A stretch of DNA of 56,320 nt from an uncultured Chitinophagaceae bacterium (GTDB taxonomy: Bacteria > Bacteroidota > Bacteroidia > Chitinophagales > Chitinophagaceae): positions 1 through 56,320 of the forward strand of contig CALJNC010000052.1 of the NCBI GenBank assembly GCA_937981995.1. Reading direction: 5' to 3'. Each line of letters begins with the position of its first letter. Position 1 is the stretch's first letter. The notes below the pieces were generated by a model. It was not told the DNA's origin. It saw nothing but the letters and a program-made list of their open reading frames with translations, and did not search any database. Shown one piece after another: positions 30,406 to 56,320 of the stretch. Position numbers and translations under genes: made by a program.

Positions 30406-31338
30406 TTATTGAACTACAACTTTTTTAATTACGCGTTGTTGTTTCTCCAAGATGAATTTACAGTAATACACACCAGGTTCTATGCCATTTACTTTGAATG
30501 TATTGATATTTTTCGTGTTGGCGTCAAATGATTTAATGGCTTTACCACTTATATCCACGATTGTTATTTGTTTTATTTTTTCAGAGTAATTTGATTTTAT
30601 ATTAAAACTGTTACTAGTTGGGTTAGGATAAATGGTAAACTGTTTTGAGATGTTATTGTAGTTCACCGTATTGGTAGGATATTGGGTTGTGAAGCAAGTT
30701 GGATTAGTGGACCACACACTGAAACCAACTGACGGACAACGGGATCGGACATATGCGCAATACGTTGTATTTGGTGCTAAACCGCTAAGGGTATAGGGAT
30801 TCGTTACCATGGTATGGGTTGGTATGCCTGTGGGTATAAAGTTTTGAATTCCTACTTCTAGATCCCAAGACAATGAAGGGGGAGTATTATTGTCTATCCA
30901 AGCAATATCTGCAGTGTCGGAAGAAATATTTGAAATGCTGATGTTTGTTGGGGGTTGACATGAAGGAACTGTTAAGGTTGAAAAGCAAGTATCGCTTGTA
31001 ATCCATGGGCTATAGCTATTTGTGCTAGTGCAGTAGCTACGTACGTATACCCGCATGGATGTTGCAGAGGATAAGCCGACCAGATGGTATGGATTAAAAC
31101 TTATGGGGTTTGTAATAGTTGAACTAACTGTTGGTATACCTGAAGGTGTGAGCCCACATAGGCTTACTTCCATATCCCAAAGAGAGTCTGCAGCAGCGTT
31201 GTTGTTTATCCAGGTGTATTCCAATGATGACGCCGTAGCGTTGTTTAATGTCAAGTTGCTTGGTGGTAAGCAGTTTTGTGCATCAGCAAAACACACAGAA
31301 AATAGAATGGCTAAAAGAAGTAGTAAAAAGGTTTTCAT
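30406..31338 (-). CDS. Fibronectin type III / T9SS-sorted secreted protein
   Basis: A 310-residue exported protein: signal peptide MKTFLLLLLAILFSVCFADAQ, two fibronectin type III domains (CLPPSNLTLNNATASSLEYTW and CQPPTNISISNISSDTADIAW as starts, each ending in a YCAYVRSRC-like strand), and a T9SS type A sorting domain opening with FTIYPNPTSNSFNIKS and ending QRVIKKVVVQ. This is the smallest of the fibronectin/T9SS proteins here and resembles single units of the giant proteins at 49677 and 55101. Probably a surface adhesin or matrix component; no enzymatic motif is seen. Confidence 0.88.
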   Translation of the reverse strand: MKTFLLLLLAILFSVCFADAQNCLPPSNLTLNNATASSLEYTWINNNAAADSLWDMEVSLCGLTPSGIPTVSSTITNPISFNPYHLVGLSSATSMRVYVRSYCTSTNSYSPWITSDTCFSTLTVPSCQPPTNISISNISSDTADIAWIDNNTPPSLSWDLEVGIQNFIPTGIPTHTMVTNPYTLSGLAPNTTYCAYVRSRCPSVGFSVWSTNPTCFTTQYPTNTVNYNNISKQFTIYPNPTSNSFNIKSNYSEKIKQITIVDISGKAIKSFDANTKNINTFKVNGIEPGVYYCKFILEKQQRVIKKVVVQ

Positions 31339-35096: not shown

Positions 35097-38000
35097 ATGA
35101 AGAAAATTTTGACACTACTTCTATTGTGTGTTGCCTGTACTACTATGCAAGCACAAATTGGGCCTGGATCAACAGGTTCAGCAGCTGCGCCCTTTGGCCC
35201 AGAAACTTTTGCCGCAATTGGTATTCCTGCCGGATGGGGTACCTACTTTACTACTGGTAACACTTGGGTGACCGCAGTAAACCAAACGAACAATTCGACC
35301 TGTGCTAATTCTGGAGACGGAACACCAGGTGGGGGAACTCGTTGGGCTCTATTGGACCAGTCTGGAACTGACGCTGGGAATTGTTTACAACTTCCAGATT
35401 TGGATGTTAGTTCACTAACAGCTCCCTTATTGCAATTTAATTATTTTATGTGTGGAATTGCTATTCCAAATGAAACCTATGTAGAATATTGGGATGGTAC
35501 GGCATGGGTAATTGCTCAGAGTAATTTAACAGCCACCAACGGTTGGGAAACTAGATGTATAGATATAACTGCATTCACGTTTGATGTTGCTGGCGATTCA
35601 GTTCGTCTTCGTTTCAGAGCAGAATCTGGCGGAGCGGGTGATGATTTTAATGCTGATAATTCTATTGATGATGTTCAGGTTATAGATAACCCACCTTGTA
35701 CAACTCCGGCTATGCTAACTTTAACTCCTGCTACTATGGTATCTTGTGGCACACCGCTCGATACTATTAGAGGTCTGGGAATTAATGCTCCGGGATGTGC
35801 TTTATTAGGGTATTCATTCGCTTGGGAAAGTTCAACAGATGCAGGTGTAACATGGAATCCTGCTGTCGGAGGTACAATTATTGACGATACAACATTCGTA
35901 CCAGCACCATTAGCTTCAGGTACTATAGATTATAGATTGGTAGTTACATGTAATGCTTCTACGACTTCAACGAATTCTTCAGTAACTTCAATTACTGCTT
36001 CGGTAGCTCCTGTTGCATCCATTACTGCAGCACCAGATTCAATTAGCTGTGGTGGTTCTTCTACCTTAGATGCTTCTACAAGTACTGGGGCAACTTCTTA
36101 TAGTTGGTCTCCAGGAGGAACATTAAATATGACTACAGGTGCTATTGTTATAGCATCTCCTGGCGTTAGTACAACAACTTATACCGTTGTTGCAAGTACT
36201 GCTGCTGGTTGCACGGATACTGCTACTGTAACAGTTAATGTAACGGGCGCCAAAACACATATTCTTGAAACCTTTGATGCCACATTTACAGGATCTCCTG
36301 CAGATTGGACAGATAATGGTGTAGGACCGAATTGGAGTTGGGATAATAATACAACAGGTTCGGGCAATACGGGTCCTTCGGCGGGTGTTGGAAGTCCTGG
36401 GTATGCCTATCTTGAAACATCATCGGGTGCAGGTTCTGACACACTTTTTACTCCTATTTTTGATTTAGCAGATGCTAGCGCTGGAGAACTCTCATTCTAC
36501 TGGCATATGTACGGTGGCGCTATGGGTACTTTAGAGGTTTATTTAATGGAAACAGATACATTAAGAAACAGAACCTTTACTTCTTTGTTTTCACAAACGG
36601 GTCAAGTTCAAACTGATGAATTAGATCCTTGGAATAAAACAACAGTTTCACTGCCTGCTGGTTCGCCATCCTATGGTACGGCACAAATTGTATTTGTAGG
36701 TATAAGAGGTACATCTTTTACAAGTGATATGGCTATTGATTCTGTATTAGTTAAATCATGCAGCGATGCCTGTGCAACTCCGGAAGGAGGAACTGTCCAT
36801 GCATTTGGAGAACCCAATGCTGTTTGTGGACCCACCGGCTTAGATTTAGGTTTAGTTGATGCGAGTCTGTGCGATGGATATTGGACAGAAGCAACAGGCA
36901 CACCAACGAATTCACAGTCTACTTATCAATGGCAGTCTGCTCCGTCGGCAACAGGTCCTTGGACAAATGTTGGAACAGGAGATATATTTTACAATACAGG
37001 AATTCTTGCTAGTACTACTTACTTTAGGGTTGAAGTATTATGTGACCCTTTAAGTACACCAGCTTACTCCTCAATATTCTCAGTTTTAGTAGGCACACCT
37101 CCAACAATGGCTTTGGCAACTACTCCTAGTTCTACCATTATTTGTTCAGGCGACACAGCGGGTGTAACCTTAGATGCAAGTGGGACTACAGGTGCCGATT
37201 CTCTTAGTTGGACACCAAGTACTAGTTTAGATACTGACACGGGCACAGTGGTAGTAGCTACACCGCTTGCAACAACATCTTATACAGTAACGGCTTATGA
37301 TTCTGTTGGTTGTAGTTCTGATACTACAATTACAGTTACGGTAAATCCATTACCAATATTAGACAGTTTAACAGCTTCTTCCGATATCATTTGTTCTGGA
37401 GATACAACTATGTTAGCGGCTAACTACATAATGCCAACCTCAGCAACATTTGATAGCTATTTATTTGGCTCTTCAGCTACTTCGACACCACATGTGTTTA
37501 CGTCGCCAACAACAATTGTAAGTTCAGGTGTTGATGATAATATAAGTGCTGTTCAAAATATAGGTTTTAACTTCAACTATGATGGAGTTAACTATACTCA
37601 GTTTAAAGCTTCACCTGATGGTTTCCTTACTTTAGGCAGTACAGGTGTTAATGACTTTAGTAATAGCATTGAATTTCCAAATGCTGGTAATTCACCTATG
37701 TTATTCCCTTATTGGGATGATTTAGCTACTGGTACAGATGGTTCTGTACAAATGGAGACTGTGGGAACAGCACCAAATCGTATGTTGATCGTTGAGTGGT
37801 TTGTAACCGCACCAAGAGCGACAACAGGACCGGCTAATGCTCGTTTCCAATGTAAAATAACTGAGACTACAAATGCTATAGAGTATATTTATATTACCGG
37901 CGGAACTTCACCTTCTGCATCAGTAGGTGCAGGTGGCCTAGGTCCAAACCCAGTAGCAAATTACCAATCTGTAACATTAAGCAGTAATACGTCAAGTACA

Positions 38001-41000
38001 ACAGCAGTTGATAATTTAAATACTGCATTACCAGCAAATGGTACAAGTTATACTTTAACGCCACCACCGAGCTCAATAAGTTATGCATGGACACCAACAG
38101 CTGATGTTGTAAGTCCAACGATGGCTAATACAGCAACCAATGCGTTGACCATGACAACAGACTTTATTGTTTCAGCAACGCACGACTCAACTGGTTGTGT
38201 ATCTACAGATACCATAACCGTTACAGTAATTACCCCAACAGCTGTAGCAACTGCCAGTCCAAGTGCATCTGTTTGTGTTGGTGATACGGTAACCTTAATG
38301 AGCGGTGCAAATGCTACAGATACAGTAATGTGGAATATGGTTACTACAGCTGGAGCGGATACTTTATTGGCTCCGGCAATAGCTGGTTCGTACACACTAA
38401 AAATTACAGATTCAAATGGTTGTATGGCAAATGATACAATAGATATTATAGTAAACACGCCATTACCATTTGATAGTATAGTAGCGAATACGGCGCCGTT
38501 CTGCGAGGGCGATACGGTTACGATACAAGCATTCCCAGGAGTAGCAAGTGCCTATTGTATTTCTGGTTTCTCAAGTACTGCTGATACGCATATTGATAGT
38601 ACGAACATTAATGGTACAGCTACAACGGCAGTACCTTTAACGAACGGAGCTGGTTATACTGATTATACGAGTACCGTTGTACCTGTTACAGCAGGAACAG
38701 CCTTCCCTATATCTCTTACGAAAGGATTAACAGGTACTGCAACCTATTCAGCTTGGGCCACGGTTTATATAGATTTAGATCAGAACGGTGTATTTGATTT
38801 ACCAGGCGAAGAGTTTACGAGTCAAACGGCTGGTGGATTTGGATCAGGTAGATTTACAGTTACTGATAATATTACAATACCACCAACAGCGACCAACGGT
38901 CCAACGAGAATGCGAATTGTATTATGGGAAAGCGGATCAGCGACAACGAACCAACCTTGTGGAGGAGGAACTTGGGGAGAGACCGAGGACTACACTATAG
39001 ATATCTCTGGAGGGGTTCCTGCAACACCAAGCTTTGCGAGTATTACATGGGATCCAACAGCTAACTTGAATCCAACAACAGGAGATAGTTTAAGTGCTAT
39101 CGGATTAACAGGAACAACAACTTATGTGGCTACTGGTACAGATGCGAATGGCTGTGTAAGTATGGATTCAATAACGATTACAGTTAATCCATTACCTACG
39201 CTTATGGCTAGTGCCACACCTGCAGCGATCTGTGAGGGCGATAGTGCCACATTGAGTGCAACAAGTAGTGCAACAGATATAGTATGGAACCCTGGCATGT
39301 TAATGGGAGGTACTCAAACGGTTGCTCCAACGGTGTCGACGGTTTACACTGTGGTCGCAACAGATACGATGACCGGTTGTACAATAGATACTGCGATAAA
39401 TCTTATAGTAAATCCTTTACCTGTGATAGCCGTTATGGTAGATACGAACGAGAGTTGTCCTGGAGCAATGGACGGTATAGCAAGTGCAACGATCATTCCA
39501 GACACCGTGAGTATTTATACAGAAGGTTTTGTAACAGCAACCGGAATAGCAACTACAATTCCAAATGCTGCAGCACCAGGTTGGACAAGTTCAGGTTCTG
39601 GTCCCTTTTGGCGCACAGATAATAATGGCGGAAACAGTGGTGGAACGGGTCCAGTGGCCGGGGCGAATACTCCTGGATATGTATTCTTAGAGAGTTCATC
39701 AGGAGCCGGAGAGGATACTTTGATATCCCCAGCGATTAATATGACTTCTTTAACGGGAGGAGCCTTTGTTACTTTCTACTATCACATGTATGGAAGCAGT
39801 ATTGATTCTTTAGCCTTCCTTGTAGATAATGGTACAACGGTTACCCAAGAATGGGCATTGGCTGGTCAGCAACAAACAGCTAGTACAGACCCTTGGATAC
39901 CGGTAACTATAGACTTGAGTGCTTATATAGGTCAGAACATTAATTTAATGTTTAGAGGAAAACGAACGATTGGTTTTGCGAATGACATGGCTATTGATGA
40001 TATAGAAGTAATCAATACGTTGCCAGCTACCTTATTATGGTCAAATGCAGCAACAACAGATACGATTACAGGTTTAACTGCAGGAACGTATACAGTAACG
40101 GCAACAAGCGCTGCTGGTTGTATAGCTAGCGATAGTGTTATGATTACTACTTTAGGTGCTGAGCCTGTTTTGGCTGCTGTAGGTGATACGGTTTGTACAG
40201 GAGACCCTGCTACTGTAATGAGCGGTGGTACTTCTGCAAATACTATCTATACTTGGAATAGTAATCCTGGAAATGTAGATACTACAATTACACCGGCAGT
40301 TGCTGGTCAGTATATAGTAGTTGCTACAGATACAGTTTCTGGTTGTATAGCTTCTGATACGGCTGATGTAGTGGTTAATACACTAACATTGTCTGCTAGT
40401 GCAAGCCCTGATTCAATTTGTATTGGTGGGTCTGCCACGCTTTCAGCTACAGGTGATGCAACTGATTACGTATGGACGCCTGGTATGTTAATGGGTGCTA
40501 CACATTCTATTACACCAACTGCTACTACGACTTATACGGTGACAGCAACGGATAGTGTGACAGGCTGTACTGCTGATTCAATGATTACGGTTATTGTAAA
40601 TCCAAATTGTTTCCCATTAAATGTTGATTACAAAACATTTAAGGTTACTAAGCTGACAACTTCTGACTTAGTTGAGTGGACAACAGTGGCAGAACAAAAC
40701 AACAAATGGTTTAATATTTTACGTTCTAATGATGGTCAAGTATTTGAAACATTAGGAACTGTAAATTCAAAAGCAATTGGTGGCAATAGCAATAGCGAAT
40801 TAAACTACAGCTTTGTAGATCAATATCCTCAAGTAGGACATAACTACTATAAGCTTGAGCAAGTTGATTTTGATAATTCGAAGCGTTACACCAATGTGAT
40901 TGATATTATTTGGGGTCGTGATGGAAGCGTAGTTTCTATCTATCCGAATCCTGCCAAGGATATCTTAAATATTGATATTAGTGCGGCAAAAGTTGCACAA

Positions 41001-41177
41001 ACTGAAATCAAGTTGTTGGATATGAGTGGTAGAGTTGTAAAGAGTATCATTGCTCAATCAGTTAAAGGAATGAATCATATGACACTTGACTTAAGCGATA
41101 TGGCCGATGGCGTATATGGTGTTCAAGTGTTTGAAAACAATAAATTGACTCATGTGAGTAAGGTTCGTAAGAATTAA
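35097..41177 (+). CDS. Giant T9SS-secreted multidomain surface protein (2026 aa)
   Basis: A 2026-residue exported protein with signal peptide MKKILTLLLLCVACTTMQAQ. By eye the order is: a MAM/choice-of-anchor-J-like domain (about 25-200), Ig-like domains, a second MAM-like domain (about 389-555), more Ig/PKD-like repeats with CxG..L.A and YTV.ATD..GC patterns, a GEVED-type domain ending in GETEDYTIDISGG (about 1148-1305), Ig-like repeats, a third MAM-like domain (about 1471-1640), further repeats, and a conserved C-terminal module (1842-2026). That module ends in a T9SS type A sorting domain, SIYPNPAKDILNIDIS to the end. It is probably a fibrous adhesin or matrix protein; no enzyme motif is seen. 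Base use appears to shift within the gene. Confidence 0.92.
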   Translation: MKKILTLLLLCVACTTMQAQIGPGSTGSAAAPFGPETFAAIGIPAGWGTYFTTGNTWVTAVNQTNNSTCANSGDGTPGGGTRWALLDQSGTDAGNCLQLPDLDVSSLTAPLLQFNYFMCGIAIPNETYVEYWDGTAWVIAQSNLTATNGWETRCIDITAFTFDVAGDSVRLRFRAESGGAGDDFNADNSIDDVQVIDNPPCTTPAMLTLTPATMVSCGTPLDTIRGLGINAPGCALLGYSFAWESSTDAGVTWNPAVGGTIIDDTTFVPAPLASGTIDYRLVVTCNASTTSTNSSVTSITASVAPVASITAAPDSISCGGSSTLDASTSTGATSYSWSPGGTLNMTTGAIVIASPGVSTTTYTVVASTAAGCTDTATVTVNVTGAKTHILETFDATFTGSPADWTDNGVGPNWSWDNNTTGSGNTGPSAGVGSPGYAYLETSSGAGSDTLFTPIFDLADASAGELSFYWHMYGGAMGTLEVYLMETDTLRNRTFTSLFSQTGQVQTDELDPWNKTTVSLPAGSPSYGTAQIVFVGIRGTSFTSDMAIDSVLVKSCSDACATPEGGTVHAFGEPNAVCGPTGLDLGLVDASLCDGYWTEATGTPTNSQSTYQWQSAPSATGPWTNVGTGDIFYNTGILASTTYFRVEVLCDPLSTPAYSSIFSVLVGTPPTMALATTPSSTIICSGDTAGVTLDASGTTGADSLSWTPSTSLDTDTGTVVVATPLATTSYTVTAYDSVGCSSDTTITVTVNPLPILDSLTASSDIICSGDTTMLAANYIMPTSATFDSYLFGSSATSTPHVFTSPTTIVSSGVDDNISAVQNIGFNFNYDGVNYTQFKASPDGFLTLGSTGVNDFSNSIEFPNAGNSPMLFPYWDDLATGTDGSVQMETVGTAPNRMLIVEWFVTAPRATTGPANARFQCKITETTNAIEYIYITGGTSPSASVGAGGLGPNPVANYQSVTLSSNTSSTTAVDNLNTALPANGTSYTLTPPPSSISYAWTPTADVVSPTMANTATNALTMTTDFIVSATHDSTGCVSTDTITVTVITPTAVATASPSASVCVGDTVTLMSGANATDTVMWNMVTTAGADTLLAPAIAGSYTLKITDSNGCMANDTIDIIVNTPLPFDSIVANTAPFCEGDTVTIQAFPGVASAYCISGFSSTADTHIDSTNINGTATTAVPLTNGAGYTDYTSTVVPVTAGTAFPISLTKGLTGTATYSAWATVYIDLDQNGVFDLPGEEFTSQTAGGFGSGRFTVTDNITIPPTATNGPTRMRIVLWESGSATTNQPCGGGTWGETEDYTIDISGGVPATPSFASITWDPTANLNPTTGDSLSAIGLTGTTTYVATGTDANGCVSMDSITITVNPLPTLMASATPAAICEGDSATLSATSSATDIVWNPGMLMGGTQTVAPTVSTVYTVVATDTMTGCTIDTAINLIVNPLPVIAVMVDTNESCPGAMDGIASATIIPDTVSIYTEGFVTATGIATTIPNAAAPGWTSSGSGPFWRTDNNGGNSGGTGPVAGANTPGYVFLESSSGAGEDTLISPAINMTSLTGGAFVTFYYHMYGSSIDSLAFLVDNGTTVTQEWALAGQQQTASTDPWIPVTIDLSAYIGQNINLMFRGKRTIGFANDMAIDDIEVINTLPATLLWSNAATTDTITGLTAGTYTVTATSAAGCIASDSVMITTLGAEPVLAAVGDTVCTGDPATVMSGGTSANTIYTWNSNPGNVDTTITPAVAGQYIVVATDTVSGCIASDTADVVVNTLTLSASASPDSICIGGSATLSATGDATDYVWTPGMLMGATHSITPTATTTYTVTATDSVTGCTADSMITVIVNPNCFPLNVDYKTFKVTKLTTSDLVEWTTVAEQNNKWFNILRSNDGQVFETLGTVNSKAIGGNSNSELNYSFVDQYPQVGHNYYKLEQVDFDNSKRYTNVIDIIWGRDGSVVSIYPNPAKDILNIDISAAKVAQTEIKLLDMSGRVVKSIIAQSVKGMNHMTLDLSDMADGVYGVQVFENNKLTHVSKVRKN

Positions 41178-41200
41178 GCATATCGAAATTTTATTAAATG

Positions 41201-41233
41201 AGCCACGACTTGAAAAAGTCGTGGCTTTTCTTT
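41201..41233 (+). terminator. Terminator of the 2026-aa T9SS gene
   Basis: Perfect 11-bp stem (AGCCACGACTT/AAGTCGTGGCT) with a GAAA tetraloop and a T-rich tail, 24 bp after the stop. Confidence 0.9.
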
Positions 41234-41280
41234 AAGGTTAATATTGTTAAATGTTCTTTTTATATTCCTATGGTGTTTCA

Positions 41281-41288
41281 TAGCTTTG
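41281..41288 (+). promoter_or_regulatory. -7 box TAGCTTTG of the 379-aa T9SS gene
   Basis: Exact TAnnTTTG match, 29 nt before the ATG. The same octamer occurs upstream of the giant gene at 49677. Confidence 0.5.
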
Positions 41289-41317
41289 TATTCTGAAAAA
41301 AGTCTTCAAATATTTAT

Positions 41318-42457
41318 ATGAAAAATCACATTACAAAAGCAATCGTTCTAACAGTTTTGTTGTTTGCCTCCACCTCACAATTTTTGCTTGCGCAAACTAC
41401 AACTACTATAAACTTTGATAACACGGCTAATTGGACGGCTGGTTCTGGTTCTTTAAGCTCCTATCAATCAGACCATACGTACACTGAGGGTTTATTTTCA
41501 GCATCTACAGATTTTGATGCTTTACGGCAAAATTCGGCCTTGCAAGATGGATTTGCTGGTGCCAATGGAACATTTGCTTGGCGCCTAAGAAATAGTGGTA
41601 CAGGTGCCTGGACTGCAACGATTGCCTCAGGTGGAGTTTCTTCTTTTAGTGTAGGTATAAGACGTTGGGACAATTCACCTAATCCAAATTATACATTAGA
41701 TTACTCAATAGATGGTGGAATAACATGGTCAAATGTGGCAACCGTAAATAATACAACACTTGCTAACTCAAGTGCTTATACTACATTCAATGGTACTTTA
41801 AATAAAGCAAATGCAAATATTCTTATTAGAGTAAACAGAGTTAGCGGAGAGCGAATAATGATAGATGATTTTGTGTGGACAGATTTTGCAGTTGTTCTTC
41901 CTACAATTTATAAATCGCTTACTGTTTCAAAAAAGTCCAATGCGCATCGTATTGAATGGATTACTACCTCAGAATTAAATTGTAAGTTTTTCAATATACA
42001 ACGATCAAATGATGGTAGTGTATTTGAAACCATTGGTACTTTAAACTCAAAAGGAATTGATGGTAATAGTTCTGAAAACTTGACCTATTTCTTTTCAGAT
42101 GACAAGCCTTTTATTGGTCATAATTATTATCGATTGGAGCAAGTAGATTTAGATGGTAATTTAAGTTACTCTGATGTAATGGACATTGTTTGGAGCTCGG
42201 ATCAAAGCGTTGTTAGTATTTATCCTAATCCTACAAAAAATGTATTGCATATAGATGTAACATCAAATAAAATTTCAAAAACTAAAGTGCAAGTTGTGGA
42301 TATGAATGGTCGCATCATTAAATCTCAAACAAACAACACGCACAAAGGTTCCAATTATCTAACACTTGATTTAACAGATGTAGCAATTGGAGTTTATGGT
42401 TTAGAAATCTATGAAAACAATAAATTAATAAACGCAACCAAAATTCATAAAAATTAA
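41318..42457 (+). CDS. T9SS-sorted secreted protein (379 aa)
   Basis: An exported 379-residue protein with signal peptide ending FLLAQ. Its N-terminal domain (about 26-190: TINFDNTANWTAGSGSLSSY, then FAWRLRNSGTGAWTATIASG, then GERIMIDDFVWTDF) looks like a jelly-roll carbohydrate-binding or choice-of-anchor domain. Residues of about 195-379 are the same C-terminal module found in the two giant proteins: a sandwich with FFNIQRSNDGSVFETIG and GHNYYRLEQVDLDGNLSYSD, then the sorting domain from SIYPNPTKNVLHIDVT. It looks like a minimal member of the family, with one N-terminal cargo domain on a shared secretion and anchoring unit. Confidence 0.88.
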   Translation: MKNHITKAIVLTVLLFASTSQFLLAQTTTTINFDNTANWTAGSGSLSSYQSDHTYTEGLFSASTDFDALRQNSALQDGFAGANGTFAWRLRNSGTGAWTATIASGGVSSFSVGIRRWDNSPNPNYTLDYSIDGGITWSNVATVNNTTLANSSAYTTFNGTLNKANANILIRVNRVSGERIMIDDFVWTDFAVVLPTIYKSLTVSKKSNAHRIEWITTSELNCKFFNIQRSNDGSVFETIGTLNSKGIDGNSSENLTYFFSDDKPFIGHNYYRLEQVDLDGNLSYSDVMDIVWSSDQSVVSIYPNPTKNVLHIDVTSNKISKTKVQVVDMNGRIIKSQTNNTHKGSNYLTLDLTDVAIGVYGLEIYENNKLINATKIHKN

Positions 42458-42478
42458 AACGTCCTTAAAATAAAACAC

Positions 42479-42508
42479 AGCCCTGCCATTTTGGTTAGGG
42501 CTTTTTTT
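42479..42508 (+). terminator. Terminator of the 379-aa T9SS gene
   Basis: Stem AGCCCT/AGGGCT with extra imperfect pairs toward the loop, followed by seven Ts, 21 bp after the stop. Confidence 0.8.
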
Positions 42509-42542
42509 ATAAAAATTGTATGCAGTAAATTGCAGTAATAAA

Positions 42543-43352
42543 ATGGCAAAAAAGAAACCAAAATGGTATGTAGTATGGAAGGGTAAAGAACCTGGAATTT
42601 ATACATCATGGTGGGATGCCAAAAAACAAATTGATGGTTATGCCGGTGCGCAGTATAAATCGTACGAATCCAAAACAGCAGCGCAAGCCGCATGGGAAGA
42701 CCCTGTGCACGCACAAGAAGTAATTAAGGAAAATCGTAAAACGATTTACTACGTTATTTGGAAAGGCCGACAAACAGGAGTTTTTACAGATTGGGAAGTA
42801 GTTAAATCATTGATTGAGGGTTTTCCTGGACCGCAGTATAAATCCTTTGGTAGTAAACAATTAGCGCAACAAGCTTATAAAGAAGGTCCTGAAAAATATA
42901 AAGGGCGCAGCTTTAAAAAAACCATAGACATGACACCGGCCGACAAGGCTAAGTACGGTATGCCTAATGAAATGACAATAAGTGTAGATGCTGCTTGTAA
43001 CGCAAAAGGTGACATGGAATACCGCGGCGTATACACCTATTCAAGCGACGAAATTTTTAAGAAAGGTCCATATAAAAATGGTTCAAATAATGTAGGAGAA
43101 TTTTTGGCATTGGTGCATGCATTAGCTTGGCTCAAAAGTCAAAAAAGTGACTTGCCTATATACTCGGATAGTAAATATGCCATGGCGTGGGTAGCCAAGA
43201 AAAAGACCAACTCAAAAATTACGGATCCATACTTGATGGACCTTGTACAACGAGCTGAAAATTGGTTGAAAGAAAATGAGTATCCAAATGAAATCATCAA
43301 ATGGCAAACAAAATTTTGGGGTGAGATACCGGCCGACTTTGGAAGGAAGTAG
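42543..43352 (+). CDS. rnhA: Ribonuclease H with two hybrid-binding (viroplasmin) domains
   Basis: RNase H1 cleaves RNA in RNA:DNA hybrids. The 269-residue protein carries two copies of the N-terminal hybrid-binding domain: residues 7-51 (KWYVVWKGKEPGIYTSWWDA) and 67-112 (TIYYVIWKGRQTGVFTDWEV), each with the aromatic W/Y positions and the QYKS(Y/F) loop. The catalytic domain follows, with probable acidic residues D149 (SVDAAC), E186 (VGEFLAL), D209 (YSDSKYA) and D265 (ADFGRK). I start at ATG 42543; a TTG nine codons earlier lies just past the terminator tail and is unlikely. It converges on hutH with a single base between stop codons. Confidence 0.92.
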   Translation: MAKKKPKWYVVWKGKEPGIYTSWWDAKKQIDGYAGAQYKSYESKTAAQAAWEDPVHAQEVIKENRKTIYYVIWKGRQTGVFTDWEVVKSLIEGFPGPQYKSFGSKQLAQQAYKEGPEKYKGRSFKKTIDMTPADKAKYGMPNEMTISVDAACNAKGDMEYRGVYTYSSDEIFKKGPYKNGSNNVGEFLALVHALAWLKSQKSDLPIYSDSKYAMAWVAKKKTNSKITDPYLMDLVQRAENWLKENEYPNEIIKWQTKFWGEIPADFGRK

Positions 43353-43353
43353 A

Positions 43354-44817: not shown

Positions 44818-44835
44818 GGAATAAAATAATTAAAA

Positions 44836-44843
44836 CGAAGATA
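44836..44843 (-). promoter_or_regulatory. -7-like box TATCTTCG of hutH
   Basis: Seven of eight bases match TAnnTTTG on the minus strand, 18 nt before the hutH ATG. Confidence 0.35.
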
Positions 44844-44931
44844 GAAAAGATACGATAAGAAAGATGCCAGCAATAGGATTTTATAAGTCCATAGATTATT
44901 GTATTTTGCGTAATCTATTCAGGCAAGAATT

Positions 44932-49200: not shown

Positions 49201-49555
49201 CTTAGTTTTTATACGCTCGGGCAATAGATTTGATATGAATGCATTACCAACAAGGGCGCAGTTTAGCCCGGTTTTTGGGATACTTGATATTCCGCAGAAA
49301 CAGCAAGCGCCCTATCTAATTACTGCAGGGAATAATTATGGCGTAGATGTCAATACTGGCCGCATGGATGCCGATCGTGGAGCCATTTGTCATTGGACCG
49401 ATGCAGGCTTGGTACCAATTTCCGCCAGTCAAGCTGTAGATATAGGCGGTCAAACAAGGCAAATTGCTCGAATAAAAACAAATAACAATAATTTTTTTGT
49501 GCTTATAATACGCAATGGAAATGCACCTATAATGTATAGATTATCAGCAACTTAG
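46223..49555 (+). CDS. VCBS/FG-GAP repeat lipoprotein with ASPIC/UnbV domain (1110 aa)
   Basis: A 1110-residue lipoprotein (lipobox VASC, then GGSSLSDK). At least twelve calcium-binding-like repeats of the type DINNDDLPDVY, DVNNDGWLDLYC, DFDNDGKKDLFV and DLDLDGDLDLIV form two beta-propeller blocks (about 60-520 and 650-900), separated by an ASPIC/UnbV domain (about 530-620, seen as GTKVTLLTDSGKQFQQLVSN and VQVEYPNGTIQKI). The C-terminal 200 residues are unassigned. Propellers of this kind bind glycans or proteins, so it may be a partner or scaffold for the haloperoxidase-like enzyme, whose gene it overlaps by 17 bp. Its ATG lies inside that gene. Confidence 0.9.
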   Translation: MFQKNKIGFLSFLVGVTYIVASCGGSSLSDKPLFTLMDSTETGFFFWNEIYDKPELNALNYGYFYNGGGVAVGDINNDDLPDVYMVGNTFGGRMYVNDGDLKFHQITATSNTATDGFTHGVTMEDVNQDGFLDIYLSRSMANVDSMRANRLLINNGDETFTDKAKEYGVDDMGFSTHANFFDYDNDGDPDLYVLNHSINYDLAMGIITQEQRDKNLRSISAKDYTATVSKLYRNNGDGTFTDVTIQAGLKDVFFGLSATASDVNNDGWLDLYCTSDFADKDHLYINNKNGTFTDKIHEAFGHISQNSMGSDIADFNNDGALDILTVDMMSEENYRNKQLKGNNPYDLFQMSMEYGYHCQVMRNCLQLNNGNGSFSEVGQLAGVSHTDWSWAPLFADFDNDGKKDLFVSNGYKKDLTDMDYMNYESNEIIRKAGGKMNVEFMQLLDGVSSTPVENYVYQNLGNFEFKNKTHDWGLKEKSFSNGAAYADLDLDGDLDLIVNNWGEPSFLYRNNSVENHPENKYLAFTFDPKQHAAVHGTKVTLLTDSGKQFQQLVSNRGFLSSMQQIVHFGLGKNNKVAEVQVEYPNGTIQKISAPKVNTQIKLDITNGKEGTFLKEEKFESLLTKIDDAFSPSLKHTESDFIDFKDEPLLEQMYSNRGPYVAVGDVNNDGLDDIYFGASAGYEGKLYVQGSDAKFILKAASDFVSDKKYEDGRSIFFDADGDKDLDLYVTSGSNEVRDNLLFQNRLYLNDGEGNFSKTSDRLPSITSNTLAVNALDIEGDGDLDLIVGGNVKPKQFPFSFSSYILQNDGKGFFSLKENALANNGALGIINDIQIADMNLDGKDDILLAGDWMPITILEQQENRFVDKTKDYGLENSSGMWNTLKLIDVNNDGKKDIVGGNRGGNNFFNCDEKHPATMYVNDFDENGEKEGLVNYYFSDGVMYPKYSLNEVLEQLPSWRGLFSRYAKYSSATSATIFSEKKYAGTETYTCKNFRSLVFIRSGNRFDMNALPTRAQFSPVFGILDIPQKQQAPYLITAGNNYGVDVNTGRMDADRGAICHWTDAGLVPISASQAVDIGGQTRQIARIKTNNNNFFVLIIRNGNAPIMYRLSAT

Positions 49556-49584
49556 CGTAAAAATTATAACAATTTCTATCTATT

Positions 49585-49592
49585 TAGCTTTG
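49585..49592 (+). promoter_or_regulatory. -7 box TAGCTTTG upstream of the 1742-aa T9SS gene
   Basis: Exact TAnnTTTG match and the same octamer as at 41281. It lies 84 nt before the ATG at 49677. A second candidate, TAACTTAG, lies closer (about 25 nt) and may be the real one. Confidence 0.35.
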
Positions 49593-49676
49593 TATAAAAT
49601 TATGTGTTAAAAAGATTAATTTGTTTGGTATGCTAAAATTTTCATAACTTAGTGAGTTCAAACAAAATTTATAAAT

Positions 49677-52600
49677 ATGAAGAAAATCGTACTTTTTTTA
49701 TTAATAGTGTCTGTATTTTTTTCTTTTCAATCTGAAGCTCAAGTAGTTACACAGATTGGATCGGGAACTACAACAAACACTACAACATCTTATCCGGCTC
49801 CTTTTGGGAACTACTGGTGGGGTGCCAGACATCAGCAGTTATATACAGCTGCTGAGTTAACTTCAGCGGGATTAACCGCGGGTGCTATTATTAATGATTT
49901 AGGTTTTAAAGTTGTGGGTGCTGCTCAAAATCAGCAGCTTGACAACTTTGAAATGAAAATTGCAGGTGTAACAAATACTACACTGACCACAGCATGGGTT
50001 ACTGGTACCGCAACTGTTTTTGGTCCAGCAAATTACACTCCTACTACGGGTACCAATTTGTTCACTCTTTCCGCTCCTTGGGTTTGGAACGGAACAGACA
50101 ACTTATTAGTAGAAACTTGTTTTAATAACGGATCATTTAATAATAATGAGGTTATGGAAAACACGGCGATAGCAAATATGAGTAATCACTACCGAGCAGA
50201 TGCTACTGGTGTATGTGCCAATGCTGCTTCTACTGGTTTAAATACAAGTCGTGCTAATTTGGTAATAAACTATCTTCCACCAGGAAGTTGTTTGCCACCT
50301 ATCGGTCTATCTGCTACTAATATTATGCCTACAAGTGCAACTTTAGGCTGGGTAGATACTTTAAATGCAATGCCTGCTATGACTTATGATATTGAGTTAT
50401 TGCCTGCAACGGCACCACCTTCTGGTACGCCTACTGCAACTGGTATTACAACAACTTCCTATAATCAAACAATGTTGACACCAAGTACGTCTTATGATTT
50501 TTATGTTAGAGGCCATTGCTCAGCAACAGATACAAGTATCTGGATTGGGCCATTTACGTTTACAACAATAGCGTCTTGTGCTGCCCCTACTGCTTTAAGT
50601 GCAACATCGGTTGCTATGGGTACAAGTATTACTGCTACATTGGATTGGACAGAGAATAATATGCCTGCGGTAAATAATTGGGATTTAATTTTAGGCTTAA
50701 GCGGAACGGTACCTACACCAACTGCGACTTCTACCCCAACTATTCCTGGAATAACAACAAAGCCTTACAGTATTCCTGGTTTACCAGAGAATACTTGTTT
50801 TGATTATTATGTTAGAACAAATTGTGGAGCAGGTACTAGTTTATGGGTTGGTCCATTTACGTTCTGTACTCCAATCTTACCTTTGAGTTGTGCTTCAGGC
50901 TCACCTACAATTGTATACCAAGAAGAATTTACAAATACATTTACGTTCCAAACGAACATACCCAATGCAGCTGCTCCGGGATGGACAAATACTGCGACTG
51001 CGAATCCACGTTGGGCTTTAGAAAGTAATGCAACAGGTTCTGCAACTACAGGTCCTAACTTTGGTGCACAAGGTAGTAGTGGTTATGCTTACTTAGAAGT
51101 AAGTTGTGTAAGCGGAGGTACAGATACCTTAACTTCTCCAGCTATTGATTTAACTGCTGCTACAGGTGCAGCTCGAGTAAAATGGTTTAATCATATGTAT
51201 GGTCCTAATTCAGGAGCTTTAGAATTATTTATTGATGATGGTACTACGGTAACAAGTGTATGGTCAGATTCTGGACAGACGCAAGCTTCTTCAGCAGCCC
51301 CTTGGGACTCTGCAGTAGTTAATTTGAATGCTTATGTAGGTTCAACGATAAATCTTGTATTTGTTGGTACGGCTGCTAACCCTGGTGGTTGTAGTGGAGA
51401 TCGTGGTATAGATCAAATTGAAGTTGAAGCATGTTTACCGCAATTAGTGGATATGGCAGCTGATACTATTACAGCACCAGTTGATATGGCTAGTTGTTAT
51501 ACGGCTACTGAAACAATTGATGTACAAATAAGCAATGCTTCTTTATCAACTATTGACTTTAGTGTGGATTCTGTTTTGGTTACTGTAGATATTACAGGTG
51601 CTACAACAGCCACATTAACTGAATGGGTAACTACTGGAACGTTAGCAGGAAATGCTACGCAGATAGTTACAATGACTACGCCTGTAGATATGACTACTGC
51701 TGGTGCTTATAATATAAGCGCTTATGTAACTGTAATGGGCGATACGGATTCATTGAATGATACTACAGCTAATGTTGCTGTTTATATGGCAGGAGCAGGT
51801 GCAGGTTCTATAGGAGCTTCACCTGATGTTCTTTGTGTATCAGGTACAACTGATGTAAGCTTTAGTGGTTTACCAGGTGTTACGGTTCAGTATCAAGAAG
51901 CTGCTGCAGCTACTGGTCCTTGGACAAATGTAGGTACTGGTGGTACAATGTACACGAGTGGTACGCTTACTGCTACTACTTATTACAGAGCTTTATTCTC
52001 TTGTAATGGAACAACTGATACTACTAATGTAGATACCGTAATTGTAAATAACCCAATGATGTTAACAAGCATGGGCGATACAATTTGTGGTGCAGATACT
52101 GCTACCCTTATGGCTACAGCTACTAGTGCAACTATTAATTGGTATGATGCTGCTACTGGCGGTAACTTATTAGATACAGGAGGTGTGTTTAATCCTTTTG
52201 TTACGGTAACTGATACTTTTTATGTAGCTCCTTTAGATGGTGCGGGTAAATTATTAATTACTGGAGTTTGTAACTTTAATAATGCTACAGGATGGTTAGC
52301 GCCAACGGCGCCTGTACCGGCAGCGGTACAAGATCCACTTGAATTTACGAATATTGGTACAGCACCTCTTGACGTAAGTGGATGGAAAGTAGAAGTAACT
52401 GGCGGAGCTGCTGGTTCGTTTACCTTCCCAGCTGGTGCAATCGTTGCTCCTAATTCAACAGTTGTTTTAGGACGTGGTACTTCAGCTGGTCCTGATGTTG
52501 CTGGGCAATACTACCAAGCACCTACATTACCAACTACAAGTTCTGGAGTTGCATTAGGTGTAATAGTAAGTGATGCTGCTGCAACGGTACAAGATGTAAT

Positions 52601-54905
52601 GTCTTACTCTGGTTTTGCTGTAGTAGGTACAGGTACTCCTGCTGCTACGGCTGCTGATTGGACTGGTACTACTGTAGGTGGTGGCGGTACAGCTGGTTGG
52701 ATTAGAACAGGATTGGATGATACCAATGATGCTTCTGATTGGACAGTTGCTAGTGCAACTAACACAATTTCTTATGGTGCATTAAATGCTGCTTATACGC
52801 CAGCTGGTTGTGAAGGAACTAGAACTGCTGTGATTGTGGTTTCAACTCCTGCAACTCCAATTACCGCATCTTCTGATACTACAGTATGTTGGGATGGTTC
52901 TGTAACGGTTCCATTAACTGCAACTAGTACGAATACTGCTTATACATATACGTGGTCTCCAGCAACTGGTTTAAATACTGCAATGGGCGCTACAGTAAAT
53001 GCAAATCCTACTGTGGCAACACAATATGTTGTAACAGGTGTAGATGCTACAGGTTGTGGTAATACGGATACTGTAAACATTGCTGTTGTAGATTCATTTA
53101 CAACTACAGCAAGTGTGAATCCTGGATATATTTGTGGATCAGATTCTGCTGAAATTAGTGCAATGACATTAATACCACCATATTGTGCAAGTAATGCGAC
53201 CAATGGTTTTGATACTAAAATTGATACGGTAACTTTTGCAGGTGTATCTATTGGATCTCCTACTACTGGTCAGGAAACATACACTGATTATACAGCAACA
53301 GTAATTCCAGTAACTGCAGGTGTAGCATTGCCATTAGCTATTCGTAATGGAGCTTCTGGAACAGCGCACTATGCTTCTTATGTAAAAGTATTTATTGATT
53401 ATAACCAAGATGGAACATATGCAGCTTCGGAAGAAGTATATGCTTGGGGTAATACCACTGCGTTTAACACTATTCCAGCTACAACCGTAACGATTCCTAC
53501 AACTGCCTTAAATGGTATGACAGGAATGAGAGTAGTGCTTAGAGAAAGTGGTTCAGCTACAACAACACTAGCATGTGGAACATTTACGTATGGTGAAACC
53601 GAAGATTATATGTTAGATATCTCAGGCGGTTCGGCTGCTCCAGTATTTAACTATGCTTGGATGCCAGGAATGTTAATGGGAGATACAGTTGTAGTAACTC
53701 CAGCAGGAACTACAACCTATACAGTAACACAAACTGATGGTTTTGGATGTTCTTCTTCTGATTCAGTAGTAGTAAATGTAAATGCCGTGTCTGGTATTTT
53801 ATCGCAAGCAACTGCTTCAAATGCTGCTTCAACTACAGGTACTCAAAATCAAACCTACCCACAAATGGATGGTACCACTATCAATTACTATGACCCAAGT
53901 TGTAACTTGATTGTAACAGTAAATGATGGTATGGGTGGTAATGTACTAGGTAGTACAGTATCAGATGTAACAATTGATGCAACGGTTCAAAACCATAACG
54001 GTCAGCCTTATACGCGTCGTTGGTTTGAAATTACACCAACTAGCGATGGACCAGCAACAGTTACTATCTATCAAACACAAGCAGACTTTGATGATTACAA
54101 TGTATTTGCAACCGCAAACGGATGGCCTTTATTGCCAACTGGTCCTACGGATGCTGCTGGTATAGCAAATGCACGTGTAACGCAAATTAGCGGTGGTACA
54201 TTAGGAGTAGGTACTCCTACACAACACACTCCTGCTACAATTGTATGGGATGCTACTGATTTGCATTGGGAGCTTACTTTCCCTGTTACAGGGTTTAGTG
54301 AATTCTATACACATACTGTGAATCCAGGAAACGTTGTATTACCAGTTACATTAACTGAGTTTACAGTAACTAAGGATGGTAGTGTAAGCTTAGCTGCTTG
54401 GATTACTTCAAGTGAGCGTAACAACAGCCACTTTAACTTACAACGTAGTGTTGACGGAAACGACTTTACTACATTAGGTAAAGTGAATACGAAGTCAGTA
54501 GACGGAAATAGCACAACTGAGTTGAGCTATAACTTTACAGATGTAGCACCTCAAATAGGACATAACTACTACAGATTAGAGCAAGTAGACCAAGATGGTC
54601 AAATGAGCTATAGCGAAATAGTAGATGTAGTATGGGGCGCTGACGGAAGTGTTGTAACGATCTATCCTAATCCTGCAACTGATAACTTAAACGTAGATGT
54701 ATCTACGGATAAAGTATCTCAGATTGAAGTAAGATTAGTAGATATGAGCGGTCGAGTGATTCAAAGCGTAATGCAGAAAACTGCAAAAGGCATGAACAAC
54801 GTAAGCTTAGACCTTAGCACGATTGCTAATGGTATCTACGGTGTTCAAATCTTAGAAAACAACAACTTGATTCACACAAGTAAGGTGAACAAGCAAGACA
54901 AGTAA
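49677..54905 (+). CDS. Giant T9SS-secreted multidomain surface protein (1742 aa)
   Basis: An exported 1742-residue protein with signal peptide MKKIVLFLLIVSVFFSFQSEAQ. By eye: an N-terminal sandwich (about 22-200), two fibronectin type III domains (203-400, starting CLPPIGLSATNI and SCAAPTALSATS), a MAM-like domain (about 410-590), a CARDB-like domain (about 595-700), Ig-like repeats, a lamin-tail-like domain (about 856-1000, DPLEFTNIGTAPLDVSGWKV), more Ig repeats, a GEVED domain (about 1165-1325, ending TYGETEDYMLDISGG), and the C-terminal module 1557-1742 with the sorting domain from TIYPNPATDNLNVDVS. It shares MAM, GEVED, GMLMG-repeat and C-terminal units with the 2026-residue protein. Probably an adhesin or matrix protein. 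Confidence 0.92.
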   Translation: MKKIVLFLLIVSVFFSFQSEAQVVTQIGSGTTTNTTTSYPAPFGNYWWGARHQQLYTAAELTSAGLTAGAIINDLGFKVVGAAQNQQLDNFEMKIAGVTNTTLTTAWVTGTATVFGPANYTPTTGTNLFTLSAPWVWNGTDNLLVETCFNNGSFNNNEVMENTAIANMSNHYRADATGVCANAASTGLNTSRANLVINYLPPGSCLPPIGLSATNIMPTSATLGWVDTLNAMPAMTYDIELLPATAPPSGTPTATGITTTSYNQTMLTPSTSYDFYVRGHCSATDTSIWIGPFTFTTIASCAAPTALSATSVAMGTSITATLDWTENNMPAVNNWDLILGLSGTVPTPTATSTPTIPGITTKPYSIPGLPENTCFDYYVRTNCGAGTSLWVGPFTFCTPILPLSCASGSPTIVYQEEFTNTFTFQTNIPNAAAPGWTNTATANPRWALESNATGSATTGPNFGAQGSSGYAYLEVSCVSGGTDTLTSPAIDLTAATGAARVKWFNHMYGPNSGALELFIDDGTTVTSVWSDSGQTQASSAAPWDSAVVNLNAYVGSTINLVFVGTAANPGGCSGDRGIDQIEVEACLPQLVDMAADTITAPVDMASCYTATETIDVQISNASLSTIDFSVDSVLVTVDITGATTATLTEWVTTGTLAGNATQIVTMTTPVDMTTAGAYNISAYVTVMGDTDSLNDTTANVAVYMAGAGAGSIGASPDVLCVSGTTDVSFSGLPGVTVQYQEAAAATGPWTNVGTGGTMYTSGTLTATTYYRALFSCNGTTDTTNVDTVIVNNPMMLTSMGDTICGADTATLMATATSATINWYDAATGGNLLDTGGVFNPFVTVTDTFYVAPLDGAGKLLITGVCNFNNATGWLAPTAPVPAAVQDPLEFTNIGTAPLDVSGWKVEVTGGAAGSFTFPAGAIVAPNSTVVLGRGTSAGPDVAGQYYQAPTLPTTSSGVALGVIVSDAAATVQDVMSYSGFAVVGTGTPAATAADWTGTTVGGGGTAGWIRTGLDDTNDASDWTVASATNTISYGALNAAYTPAGCEGTRTAVIVVSTPATPITASSDTTVCWDGSVTVPLTATSTNTAYTYTWSPATGLNTAMGATVNANPTVATQYVVTGVDATGCGNTDTVNIAVVDSFTTTASVNPGYICGSDSAEISAMTLIPPYCASNATNGFDTKIDTVTFAGVSIGSPTTGQETYTDYTATVIPVTAGVALPLAIRNGASGTAHYASYVKVFIDYNQDGTYAASEEVYAWGNTTAFNTIPATTVTIPTTALNGMTGMRVVLRESGSATTTLACGTFTYGETEDYMLDISGGSAAPVFNYAWMPGMLMGDTVVVTPAGTTTYTVTQTDGFGCSSSDSVVVNVNAVSGILSQATASNAASTTGTQNQTYPQMDGTTINYYDPSCNLIVTVNDGMGGNVLGSTVSDVTIDATVQNHNGQPYTRRWFEITPTSDGPATVTIYQTQADFDDYNVFATANGWPLLPTGPTDAAGIANARVTQISGGTLGVGTPTQHTPATIVWDATDLHWELTFPVTGFSEFYTHTVNPGNVVLPVTLTEFTVTKDGSVSLAAWITSSERNNSHFNLQRSVDGNDFTTLGKVNTKSVDGNSTTELSYNFTDVAPQIGHNYYRLEQVDQDGQMSYSEIVDVVWGADGSVVTIYPNPATDNLNVDVSTDKVSQIEVRLVDMSGRVIQSVMQKTAKGMNNVSLDLSTIANGIYGVQILENNNLIHTSKVNKQDK

Positions 54906-54934
54906 TAGAAGTAAATAACGTTACTTATTATAGC

Positions 54935-54966
54935 AAGCGCCCTTCATTTTGAAGGGCGCTTTTTTT
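54935..54966 (+). terminator. Terminator of the 1742-aa T9SS gene
   Basis: Stem AAGCGCCCTTC/GAAGGGCGCTT with a 5-nt loop, ending in a run of Ts, 30 bp after the stop. Confidence 0.9.
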
Positions 54967-55065
54967 GATTTACTCAAATTTTTTTATACTAAAACCATTC
55001 AAACTAATTAAATATTAGAGTTAATGAAATGTTTTTCACTTTTTGGTAGTCTTAAAAAATTAAGA

Positions 55066-55073
55066 TAACTTTA
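55066..55073 (+). promoter_or_regulatory. -7-like box TAACTTTA of the last gene
   Basis: Seven of eight bases match TAnnTTTG, 27 nt before the ATG at 55101. A similar TAACTTAG lies at a comparable distance from the ATG of the 1742-aa gene. Confidence 0.35.
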
Positions 55074-55100
55074 GTTCTCATTTAAAAAAATTTATTAATT

Positions 55101-56320
55101 ATGAAGAAAATACTACTACTATTTGTAGCAATATTATGTGCTTCTGTTATGTCCTTTGGACAAACACCGCCCTTTGCCCCTACCACTTTGGGTACAAGCA
55201 GCAATTCCATTCCTTTGAATGGTACGTCTACATCTTGGCAAAAAATTCAAAACATTTATCCAGCAGGTTATTTTGCCGGAGGTGCTTACATAGGTATCAT
55301 TGATACTTTATGGATTAGATGTGCAACCAATCGCCCAACAGGAGCTGGCCTTTATGGTGGCTTTGAGGTATCTGTTGCACAAAACGTAGGAACCCAAGCT
55401 AATTGGACAAATACTACGTTTAATACAGGAATGACTTCCATTTTTAGTAATGCATCTTACACAACAAATCCGATTGTAACCGCATTGCCTAATAATGGTT
55501 GGTTGGCTATTCCTATAACTACTCCATTTTTATATAACCCAGCTTTATCGTTGGTTATTGAAATTCGTCAAAACTCTTACACTACCTTTAACGGTACTAC
55601 TGTAAGAAATAACACAACTACAGGTACTTCAAGAATGTGGGGTCTTTATGGTGCAACAACTGGTTCTTCAGGTACGGGCTTAATGGATGCAGGTTTATCT
55701 TTATTATCTCCATTAAATTGTGCTACTCCAACAATGGGTACTGCATCTTATGTAGGTACAGATTCTGTAACTTTATCTTGGACAGAAAATAATACACCTG
55801 CTGCAACTACTTGGGAAATTGAGTGGGGTCCTGCAGGATTTACTCAAACAGGAACACCTCAAATTACAACAACTACAAATCCTCATGGGATTGGAGGTTT
55901 AACTAACAATACTGCTTATGATTTTCATATAAGATCTTATTGTGGCGCTGGTGATTCAAGTTTTTATCATTCAATATTAAATGTAACTACCTTGGCAACT
56001 TGTCCTTGGCCAACTACATTAAACGCTACAGGTATTACCGCAACACAAGCAACATTAAGCTGGGTAGATCCAGCTCCAACACCAAGTGGTAATTATGATT
56101 TATTATTAGGTTTAGCAGGAACACTTCCTGATCCAAACCTTATGAATACAACTCCAACTATTCCTGGATTAACTTCAACAACCTTTACATTACCTGGTTT
56201 ACCAGATAATACGTGTTTTGATTATTATGTTCGTTCAGATTGTGGGCCTGGTGATTCAAGTGTATGGACAGGACCTTATACCTTCTGTACTTTAATTGCT
56301 CCATTAAATTGTACTGCAGG
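55101..56320 (+). CDS. Fibronectin-III secreted protein, 3' end outside window (probable T9SS cargo)
   Basis: The frame is open from the ATG at 55101 to the window end (406 codons), so the gene is cut by the boundary. It begins with signal peptide MKKILLLFVAILCASVMSFGQ. An N-terminal sandwich follows (about 25-205, with GAYIGIIDTLWIRCATNRP and LVIEIRQNSY), then at least two fibronectin type III units beginning LNCATPTMGTASYVGTDSVT and TCPWPTTLNATGITATQATL; the second ends in FDYYVRSDCGPGDSSVWTGP. The latter strongly resembles the FDYYVRTNCG end of a unit in the 1742-residue protein just upstream. A T9SS sorting domain is expected at the missing C-terminus but is not seen. Confidence 0.88.
   Translation, partial: MKKILLLFVAILCASVMSFGQTPPFAPTTLGTSSNSIPLNGTSTSWQKIQNIYPAGYFAGGAYIGIIDTLWIRCATNRPTGAGLYGGFEVSVAQNVGTQANWTNTTFNTGMTSIFSNASYTTNPIVTALPNNGWLAIPITTPFLYNPALSLVIEIRQNSYTTFNGTTVRNNTTTGTSRMWGLYGATTGSSGTGLMDAGLSLLSPLNCATPTMGTASYVGTDSVTLSWTENNTPAATTWEIEWGPAGFTQTGTPQITTTTNPHGIGGLTNNTAYDFHIRSYCGAGDSSFYHSILNVTTLATCPWPTTLNATGITATQATLSWVDPAPTPSGNYDLLLGLAGTLPDPNLMNTTPTIPGLTSTTFTLPGLPDNTCFDYYVRSDCGPGDSSVWTGPYTFCTLIAPLNCTA

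Follow-up and report, generated by a model that had tools for sequence, protein, structure and literature searches.

A sandwich domain of predicted fibronectin type III fold directly precedes type A secretion signals in varied Bacteroidota cargo proteins and may act as a collar between cargo and signal

The DNA analysed here (the window) is the whole of contig C52 (CALJNC010000052.1; 56,320 bases) of an uncultured Chitinophagaceae bacterium, the genome of which comprises 2.73 Mb in 82 contigs. It encodes three proteins of 2026, 379 and 1742 residues that have in common a C-terminal module consisting of a sandwich domain of about 100 residues and a sorting signal of about 80 residues, the latter being a type A C-terminal domain (CTD) of the type IX secretion system (T9SS). 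The initial annotation had described the three as giant proteins ending in the same module, and the shared module is confirmed: with that of the 2026-residue protein as query the other two are found at E 2.0e-66 and 5.9e-64, far beyond chance, although the 379-residue protein is not giant. The genes and domains concerned are listed below, where FN3 stands for fibronectin type III, pLDDT for predicted local distance difference test and A1 for the sandwich profile described further on.

35097-41177 (+): T9SS cargo protein of 2026 residues with two MAM domains, GEVED, Ig_7 repeats, sandwich and type A CTD
40614-40925 (+): FN3-like sandwich of the 2026-residue protein (profile A1, 121.2 bits, E 4.3e-35)
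40938-41174 (+): type A CTD (PF18962) of the 2026-residue protein, reaching to the last codon (57.1 bits at 40938-41162)
41318-42457 (+): T9SS cargo protein of 379 residues with sandwich and type A CTD; an upstream Reelin-subrepeat match lies below cut-off
41894-42208 (+): FN3-like sandwich of the 379-residue protein (profile A1, 120.3 bits)
42218-42454 (+): type A CTD of the 379-residue protein (52.0 bits at 42218-42430)
49677-54905 (+): T9SS cargo protein of 1742 residues with fn3, Ig_7, GEVED, sandwich and type A CTD; an LTD match lies below cut-off
54336-54647 (+): FN3-like sandwich of the 1742-residue protein (profile A1, 122.2 bits; model residues 11-100 form a block of pLDDT 90-96)
54636-54650 (+): short inter-domain joint of the 1742-residue protein (model residues ~103-107; pLDDT down to 74 in residues 101-110), the putative region of PorU cleavage
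54660-54902 (+): type A CTD of the 1742-residue protein (57.5 bits at 54660-54884; fold like the PorU CTD 6za2)
55101-56318 (+): fourth gene, truncated by the end of the contig; paralogous in its N-terminal part to the 1742-residue protein, with its C-terminus beyond the contig

Pairwise identity within the trio amounts to 51-53% for the sandwich and 47-58% for the sorting domain, and all three sorting domains lie over the cut-offs of PF18962 (50.6, 49.6 and 52.7 bits; cut-off 27) and TIGR04183 (36.2, 35.6 and 42.2 bits; cut-off 23). The products of the trio and of the fourth gene exhibit hydrophobic N-termini as judged by eye, and the genome encodes the secretion system itself (PorU, 1300.9 bits; SprA, 2529.7 bits). 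The three proteins had also been said to possess different N-terminal domains, which is correct in part: the 2026- and 1742-residue proteins have a MAM/choice-of-anchor-J region (44% identity over 176 columns) and a GEVED region (37% over 303 columns) in common and are therefore not wholly different in their N-terminal parts. The order of these regions differs between the two, a sign of domain shuffling beyond the tail. The 406 visible residues of the fourth gene resemble the N-terminus of the 1742-residue protein (32% over 433 columns).

A profile made from the alignment of 20 sandwiches of this genome (profile A1) finds 24 sandwich copies in it, all of which lie directly before a C-terminal signal and none of which is internal. 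The signal matches PF18962 over cut-off in 22 copies, falls below it in one (19.9 bits), and in one further copy (L027) is matched by TIGR04183 and not by PF18962. Presence of the sandwich hence implies presence of the signal in this genome, whilst the reverse fails: the PF18962 model matches 134 places at E up to 0.01, 126 of them over cut-off (one being PorU itself), and a sandwich accompanies 22 of these 126. The module is not confined to the trio, as the initial annotation had allowed that it might be, since 21 further T9SS proteins of the genome carry it. The carriers are varied and include proteins with SdrD_B-type repeats (L008, L013), an M43 peptidase (L010), DUF1501 (L012) and MAM (L015), together with P_proprotein and choice-of-anchor V amongst the 17 carriers outside the window, several of which were analysed only from 500 residues upstream of the match and for which 25 of 33 Pfam families were listed. 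The second half of the module belongs to the PF18962/TIGR04183 family as an ordinary member (as it also does in 16 and 17, respectively, of the 17 further carriers), and these models cover just the last ~75 residues and not the sandwich.

No sandwich precedes any of the 21 type B signals over cut-off in this genome. A clean restriction to type A was nevertheless rejected, since carrier L017 (contig C60) also gives a type B match just below cut-off (26.3 of 27 bits) and one of the 17 carriers gives a weak type C match (NF033708, E 0.00013). Signals with and without a sandwich score alike (n = 23 and 111, medians 44.5 and 47.2 bits, P 0.44), and the possibility of altered CTDs in carriers was rejected on this basis.

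The part preceding the signal had been described as being as conserved as the signal itself, and this is borne out over 20 paralogues of this genome, with a mean pairwise identity of 28.2% for the sandwich versus 23.5% for the signal and an information content per column of 2.04 versus 1.89 bits. When the window trio is excluded, 103 of 136 pairs are more alike in the sandwich than in the signal, although these pairs are not independent and the paralogue set was found using the whole module. Mean identity is higher for the sandwich than for the signal in seven of eight genomes (the exception being G066, 0.774 vs 0.777), in a comparison that favours the sandwich, as the sequence sets were found via the sandwich or the whole module and those from the other genomes were top-ranked by the sandwich profile. 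A comparison with Ig-like repeats had been proposed as well: the sandwich is better conserved than the signal, yet not more alike than the 11 Ig_7-like repeats of two window proteins (eight of the 2026-residue and three of the 1742-residue protein), which average 34.8% identity in what is largely a comparison of repeats within one protein. Co-divergence of the two halves is significant in G132 (rho 0.45), G066 (0.94) and G017 (0.39) and not significant in G158, G140, G091 and G072; in G066 and G132 it is driven at least in part by recent copies.

A structural model of the module from the 1742-residue protein, built with 17 sequences, exhibits two well-formed sandwiches (pLDDT 89.9, predicted template modelling score 0.56) with a dip in confidence at the joint, and the relative orientation of the two domains in it is taken to be uncertain. 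Structure comparison (VIA-align 2) places the first half (model residues 4-103) on the FN3 domain 2ibb with Z 10.6 and 2.6 Å over 97 aligned residues, and the second half on the PorU CTD 6za2 with Z 9.9 and 2.6 Å over 88 residues at 23% identity, with other sandwich domains scoring about equally well for this second half; the whole model superposes on the tandem FN3 pair 4lxo (Z 10.8, 2.8 Å, 168 aligned). The sandwich is thus predicted to adopt the FN3 fold. It is like Pfam fn3 (PF00041) in this predicted fold and differs from it by the absence of a sequence match, as PF00041 was matched neither by the trio sandwiches nor by 20 sandwiches of this genome scanned alone (E up to 0.1); one lone sandwich matched a different model, ASTN1_2_fn3, at E 0.058, and the fn3 match of the 1742-residue protein lies at 207-283. 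Spacing between the YYRL strand and the PNP of the signal is near-constant: of 92 copies tried, seven could not be measured, and 74 of the other 85 have 30-35 residues, whilst the 11 outliers may reflect a misplaced anchor of the text pattern.

Sandwich-plus-CTD combinations as such are already known, whilst the sandwich family itself is without a model over cut-off in the Pfam and NCBIfam scans (Pfam copy of 2025, NCBIfam 2026), and no description of the domain was found in open-licence full texts, which is not proof of its absence. No Pfam or NCBIfam model falls on the sandwiches of the trio at E up to 0.1. When the 20 sandwiches were scanned alone, 11 Pfam families appeared at E up to 0.1, none in more than four members, and four NCBIfam families with one member each (best E 0.0054). 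Ten sandwiches scanned singly gave nothing over the curated Pfam cut-offs, the best reaching 23.9 of 27.8 bits and 18.1 of 28.2 bits for the two galactose-binding families PF00754 and PF22633; the remaining ten were judged by E-values only. Amongst the weak resemblances are the NedA-like galactose-binding family PF22633 (3 of 20 members, best E 6.3e-5) and the F5/8 type C family PF00754 (4 of 20 members, best E 0.0022). Against all PDB sequences profile A1 gives three matches at E up to 10, no gingipain by name being amongst them, and the sole match under E 1 is an fn3-like stretch of the BDI_3064 protein (5z06, E 0.0071). These likenesses, both to galactose-binding families below cut-off and to the solved BDI_3064 stretch, could suit a module for the binding of a ligand (a carbohydrate, for instance) that would keep secreted proteins close to a substrate and stand next to the CTD by historical accident, and the same is true of the polar residues E29, N31 and D87, invariant in the module alignment, and of the nearly invariant D89. 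However, the predicted fold finds its match in FN3 and not in a galactose-binding domain, the carriers are very varied and internal copies, which such a module leads one to expect, are absent from this genome, so that we regard a ligand-binding role as highly improbable.

In the wider phylum, 110 of 198 sampled genomes of Bacteroidota, and 83 of 103 genera, give a match to the sandwich profile; the best match is strong (E up to 1e-12) in 89 genomes, and 21 have weak matches alone. PorU is found over cut-off in 136 of the 198 genomes, in a scan that scored at most ~3 candidates per genome, and in 82 of the 89 genomes with strong matches; the remaining seven possess the SprA translocon, which was found in all 12 genomes in which it was sought. 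The position before the signal is maintained: in each of 30 genomes, this one included, the best match lies 68-105 residues before the C-terminus, with a CTD-profile match in 28 of 30, and two further matches at these loci extend past the end of the fetched sequence. From the best-ranked matches listed, 72 copies were drawn from seven other genomes, which are also amongst the 30, and every one of them lies 60-130 residues before the C-terminus and has a CTD-profile match. A signal likewise follows the stronger copies in a set of 26 genomes in which matches are few or weak, with the exception of L064. Below ~40 bits the matches are a mixture of generic fn3 domains, a separate 'SIKAMF' family and some CTD neighbours; since other fn3 domains are picked up by the profile in this range, the edge of the family is soft there.

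Relatives of the trio were also found at 15 loci of named genomes (Siphonobacter, Fulvivirga, Spirosoma, Pedobacter, Membranihabitans, Saprospiraceae, Chitinophagaceae and Ignavibacterium), of which the 14 complete ones, as judged by eye, end in a signal-like tail. A module of this genome also has matches on 22 plasmids in PLSDB, and we take the genera of all 22 to belong to the Bacteroidota; of the ten carriers listed for these plasmids, seven are named 'T9SS type A sorting domain-containing protein', two 'hypothetical protein' and one after an enzyme. The viral contigs of IMG/VR contain no relative of the window trio. Two uncultured huge-phage records, LR756504.1 (636 kb; L213:3503-4525) and LR756500.1 (462 kb; L214:3422-4555), encode sandwich proteins with hydrophobic N-termini, sandwich scores of 94.7 and 79.7 bits and terminal CTD-like tails of 10.2 and 27.4 bits, and Pfam gives nothing at E up to 0.01 in either protein. 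Neighbours of L214 match phage families such as PhoH, and one neighbour of L213 matches families of unknown function. The two sandwich proteins suggest that phages may use the T9SS of their host.

The tail is optional on its cargo. The enzyme part of the DUF1501 carrier L012 was searched in 119 genomes of the order, 69 of which match, and the best locus was inspected in 30 of these, the query included (one being cut by the contig end, and some other homologues having longer frames): a signal follows the enzyme in 28 of 30 loci and a sandwich in two of 30, the second of which (L193) is weak at 31.1 bits. Given that DUF1501 homologues are mostly without the sandwich, as are most type A signals of this genome, the idea that it is a required part of the signal was rejected. 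A DUF1501 paralogue in this genome, 61% identical in the enzyme part, exhibits a signal without a sandwich, and its CTD shares only 33% identity with the CTD of L012, as would be seen after replacement of the entire tail.

Exchange of the tail is seen in other genomes. In G066, loci L166 and L162 have unrelated upstream DNA (29-39 of 60 bases alike per window), whilst from the start of the module 53-59 of 60 bases are identical in nine windows and 48 in the tenth; L120 and L121 of G140 constitute a weaker case of the same kind. Thus, sandwich and signal have moved together onto unrelated cargo in two other genomes. In G132, four tandem T9SS cargo paralogues (L133 vs L137, L138 and L139) have near-identical flanks, and one of them differs from the rest by a tract of ~217 bp within the sandwich, which makes it a clean mosaic. 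A donor for this tract was sought in that genome, and none exceeds ~76% identity at tract length; the best long match reaches 70%, and short stretches 90-100%.

These cases raise the question of whether the sandwich has any role in secretion, or has become common because the 3' ends of cargo genes are copied and recombine together with their signal, its conservation then reflecting copying and the constraints of the fold. The near-identical modules under unrelated upstream regions, the tandem paralogues with their one odd tract and the DUF1501 pair, which suits a replaced tail, all speak for such hitch-hiking. However, copying alone would lead one to expect neither the conservation of the domain between classes of the phylum, where the sandwich is generally better preserved than a signal that is itself functional, nor its absence before all 21 type B signals; furthermore, the two halves diverge independently in this genome and the G132 tract lacks a close donor. 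We therefore consider hitch-hiking without function possible, though unlikely.

The initial annotation had gone further in the opposite direction and suggested that the part preceding the signal has a function of its own, for instance as a unit for docking at the surface or for polymer assembly that is recognised along with the T9SS signal. This interpretation is supported in part: the sandwich is indeed a separately conserved domain, stands before the signal in 24/24 and 72/72 copies and is inherited with it as one unit in some genomes, and its adjacency to the signal, its near-constant spacing and the lack of a type B partner here would also suit such a unit. Joint recognition, however, is not supported. 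Most type A signals of this genome do without the sandwich, the same type of cargo is mostly found without it (two of 30 for DUF1501), CTD scores are unaffected by its presence and the orientation of the two domains is uncertain in the model; in addition no feature of polymerisation was found, although no dedicated test for assembly was made. A docking or polymer-assembly unit hence appears very unlikely to us.

The explanation that we favour, with confidence little better than even, is that the sandwich constitutes an FN3 collar, or insulator, between the cargo and the T9SS signal. Varied and often repetitive cargo would be capped by one standard domain, and the collar would hold the signal at a near-constant distance from its folded neighbour. 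PorU would then cut in the linker, leaving the sandwich on the mature protein as its membrane-proximal end. Such a collar would be optional and could be passed on to new cargo in a 3' cassette that includes the signal.

The nearest model for such an arrangement is the work on the gingipain RgpB of Porphyromonas gingivalis, and for this reason we read the sandwich as the FN3 counterpart of the immunoglobulin superfamily (IgSF) collar of that protein. According to excerpts of the RgpB study (PMC4804311), an IgSF domain precedes the CTD with no fixed orientation as seen by small-angle X-ray scattering, lengthening of the linker abolishes anchoring and yields soluble, non-glycosylated RgpB, whilst replacement of the linker sequence does not, and the authors propose a spacer or insulator role for the IgSF domain. 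An excerpt of a further study (PMC11285876) reports that the exchange A719R in RgpB disturbs the contact with the preceding domain and that the protein is not secreted. In so far as these excerpts (PMC4804311, PMC11285876) describe it, the IgSF-CTD tail of RgpB resembles the module analysed here in that a sandwich stands directly before a type A CTD with a short linker between them, and the spacer or insulator role proposed for RgpB (PMC4804311) goes together with the absence of a fixed orientation in solution there and an uncertain orientation in the predicted model here. Unlike the gingipain, the present module exhibits FN3 fold matches, belongs to one family across many types of cargo and is optional; the gingipain IgSF domain is not amongst the 50 structure matches listed, an absence that excludes nothing. 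A second point of comparison is offered by T9SS type B CTD regions, of which more than 200 residues are needed for secretion according to an excerpt of PMC10202324. The likeness lies in the importance of the region upstream of the signal, and the difference in the absence of the sandwich before all the type B CTDs over cut-off in this genome.

Several observations weigh against the collar. As 104 of the 126 type A signals over cut-off are without a sandwich, insulation can be no general need, and divergence of sandwich and signal is uncorrelated in this genome (rho 0.02), so that there is no sign of a mutual fit between them. The sub-cut-off likeness of lone sandwiches to PF22633 and PF00754 leaves room for ligand binding. 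Seven genomes (G007, G091, G126, G099, G122, G147 and G195) possess strong sandwiches (2 to 24 per genome) and SprA without a PorU over cut-off, and a role linked to PorU cleavage is therefore not universal, unless PorU is divergent or was missed in them. At L064 (G115) the reading frame ends 34 residues after the sandwich with just the start of a signal, and no experiment was found in a bacterium that carries the sandwich domain. A different role would be that of a second T9SS sorting determinant, setting apart a subclass of type A cargo destined for a distinct fate (retention or a particular form of attachment, for example), copied as a cassette and carried by huge phages on proteins resembling those with signal peptides; this we hold to be decidedly improbable.

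Some further observations concern neighbouring families and genes. Ten loci (L066, L067, L068, L071, L072, L075, L076, L078, L085 and L090) contain a separate family of short proteins (~130-150 residues by eye) with a hydrophobic N-terminus, one fn3-like sandwich and no CTD. Their conserved C-terminal tail is like VRRTWGSIKAMFQ, and in L090 reads VKRSWGMIKELFR; the next gene downstream looks like pyrR by eye in eight of the ten loci, with the start alone being readable in L071. Within the window, a further type A T9SS cargo gene without a sandwich lies at 30406-31338 on the minus strand (CTD at 30412-30633, 52 bits), and the gene just after that of the 379-residue cargo protein (42516-43352) encodes by eye a product like a ribonuclease H1 type protein with viroplasmin-like repeats.

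Two of the 24 carriers in this genome stay short of the PF18962 cut-off, and the sandwich may thus flag cargo that is missed by the standard signal model. Naming the domain would improve the prediction of T9SS cargo. A named domain would also provide a swappable part with which to test the role of the domain adjacent to the signal, a role that in the literature found has so far been studied on gingipains. Finally, the exchange of sandwich and signal as a cassette illustrates a route by which new surface proteins are recruited in these bacteria.

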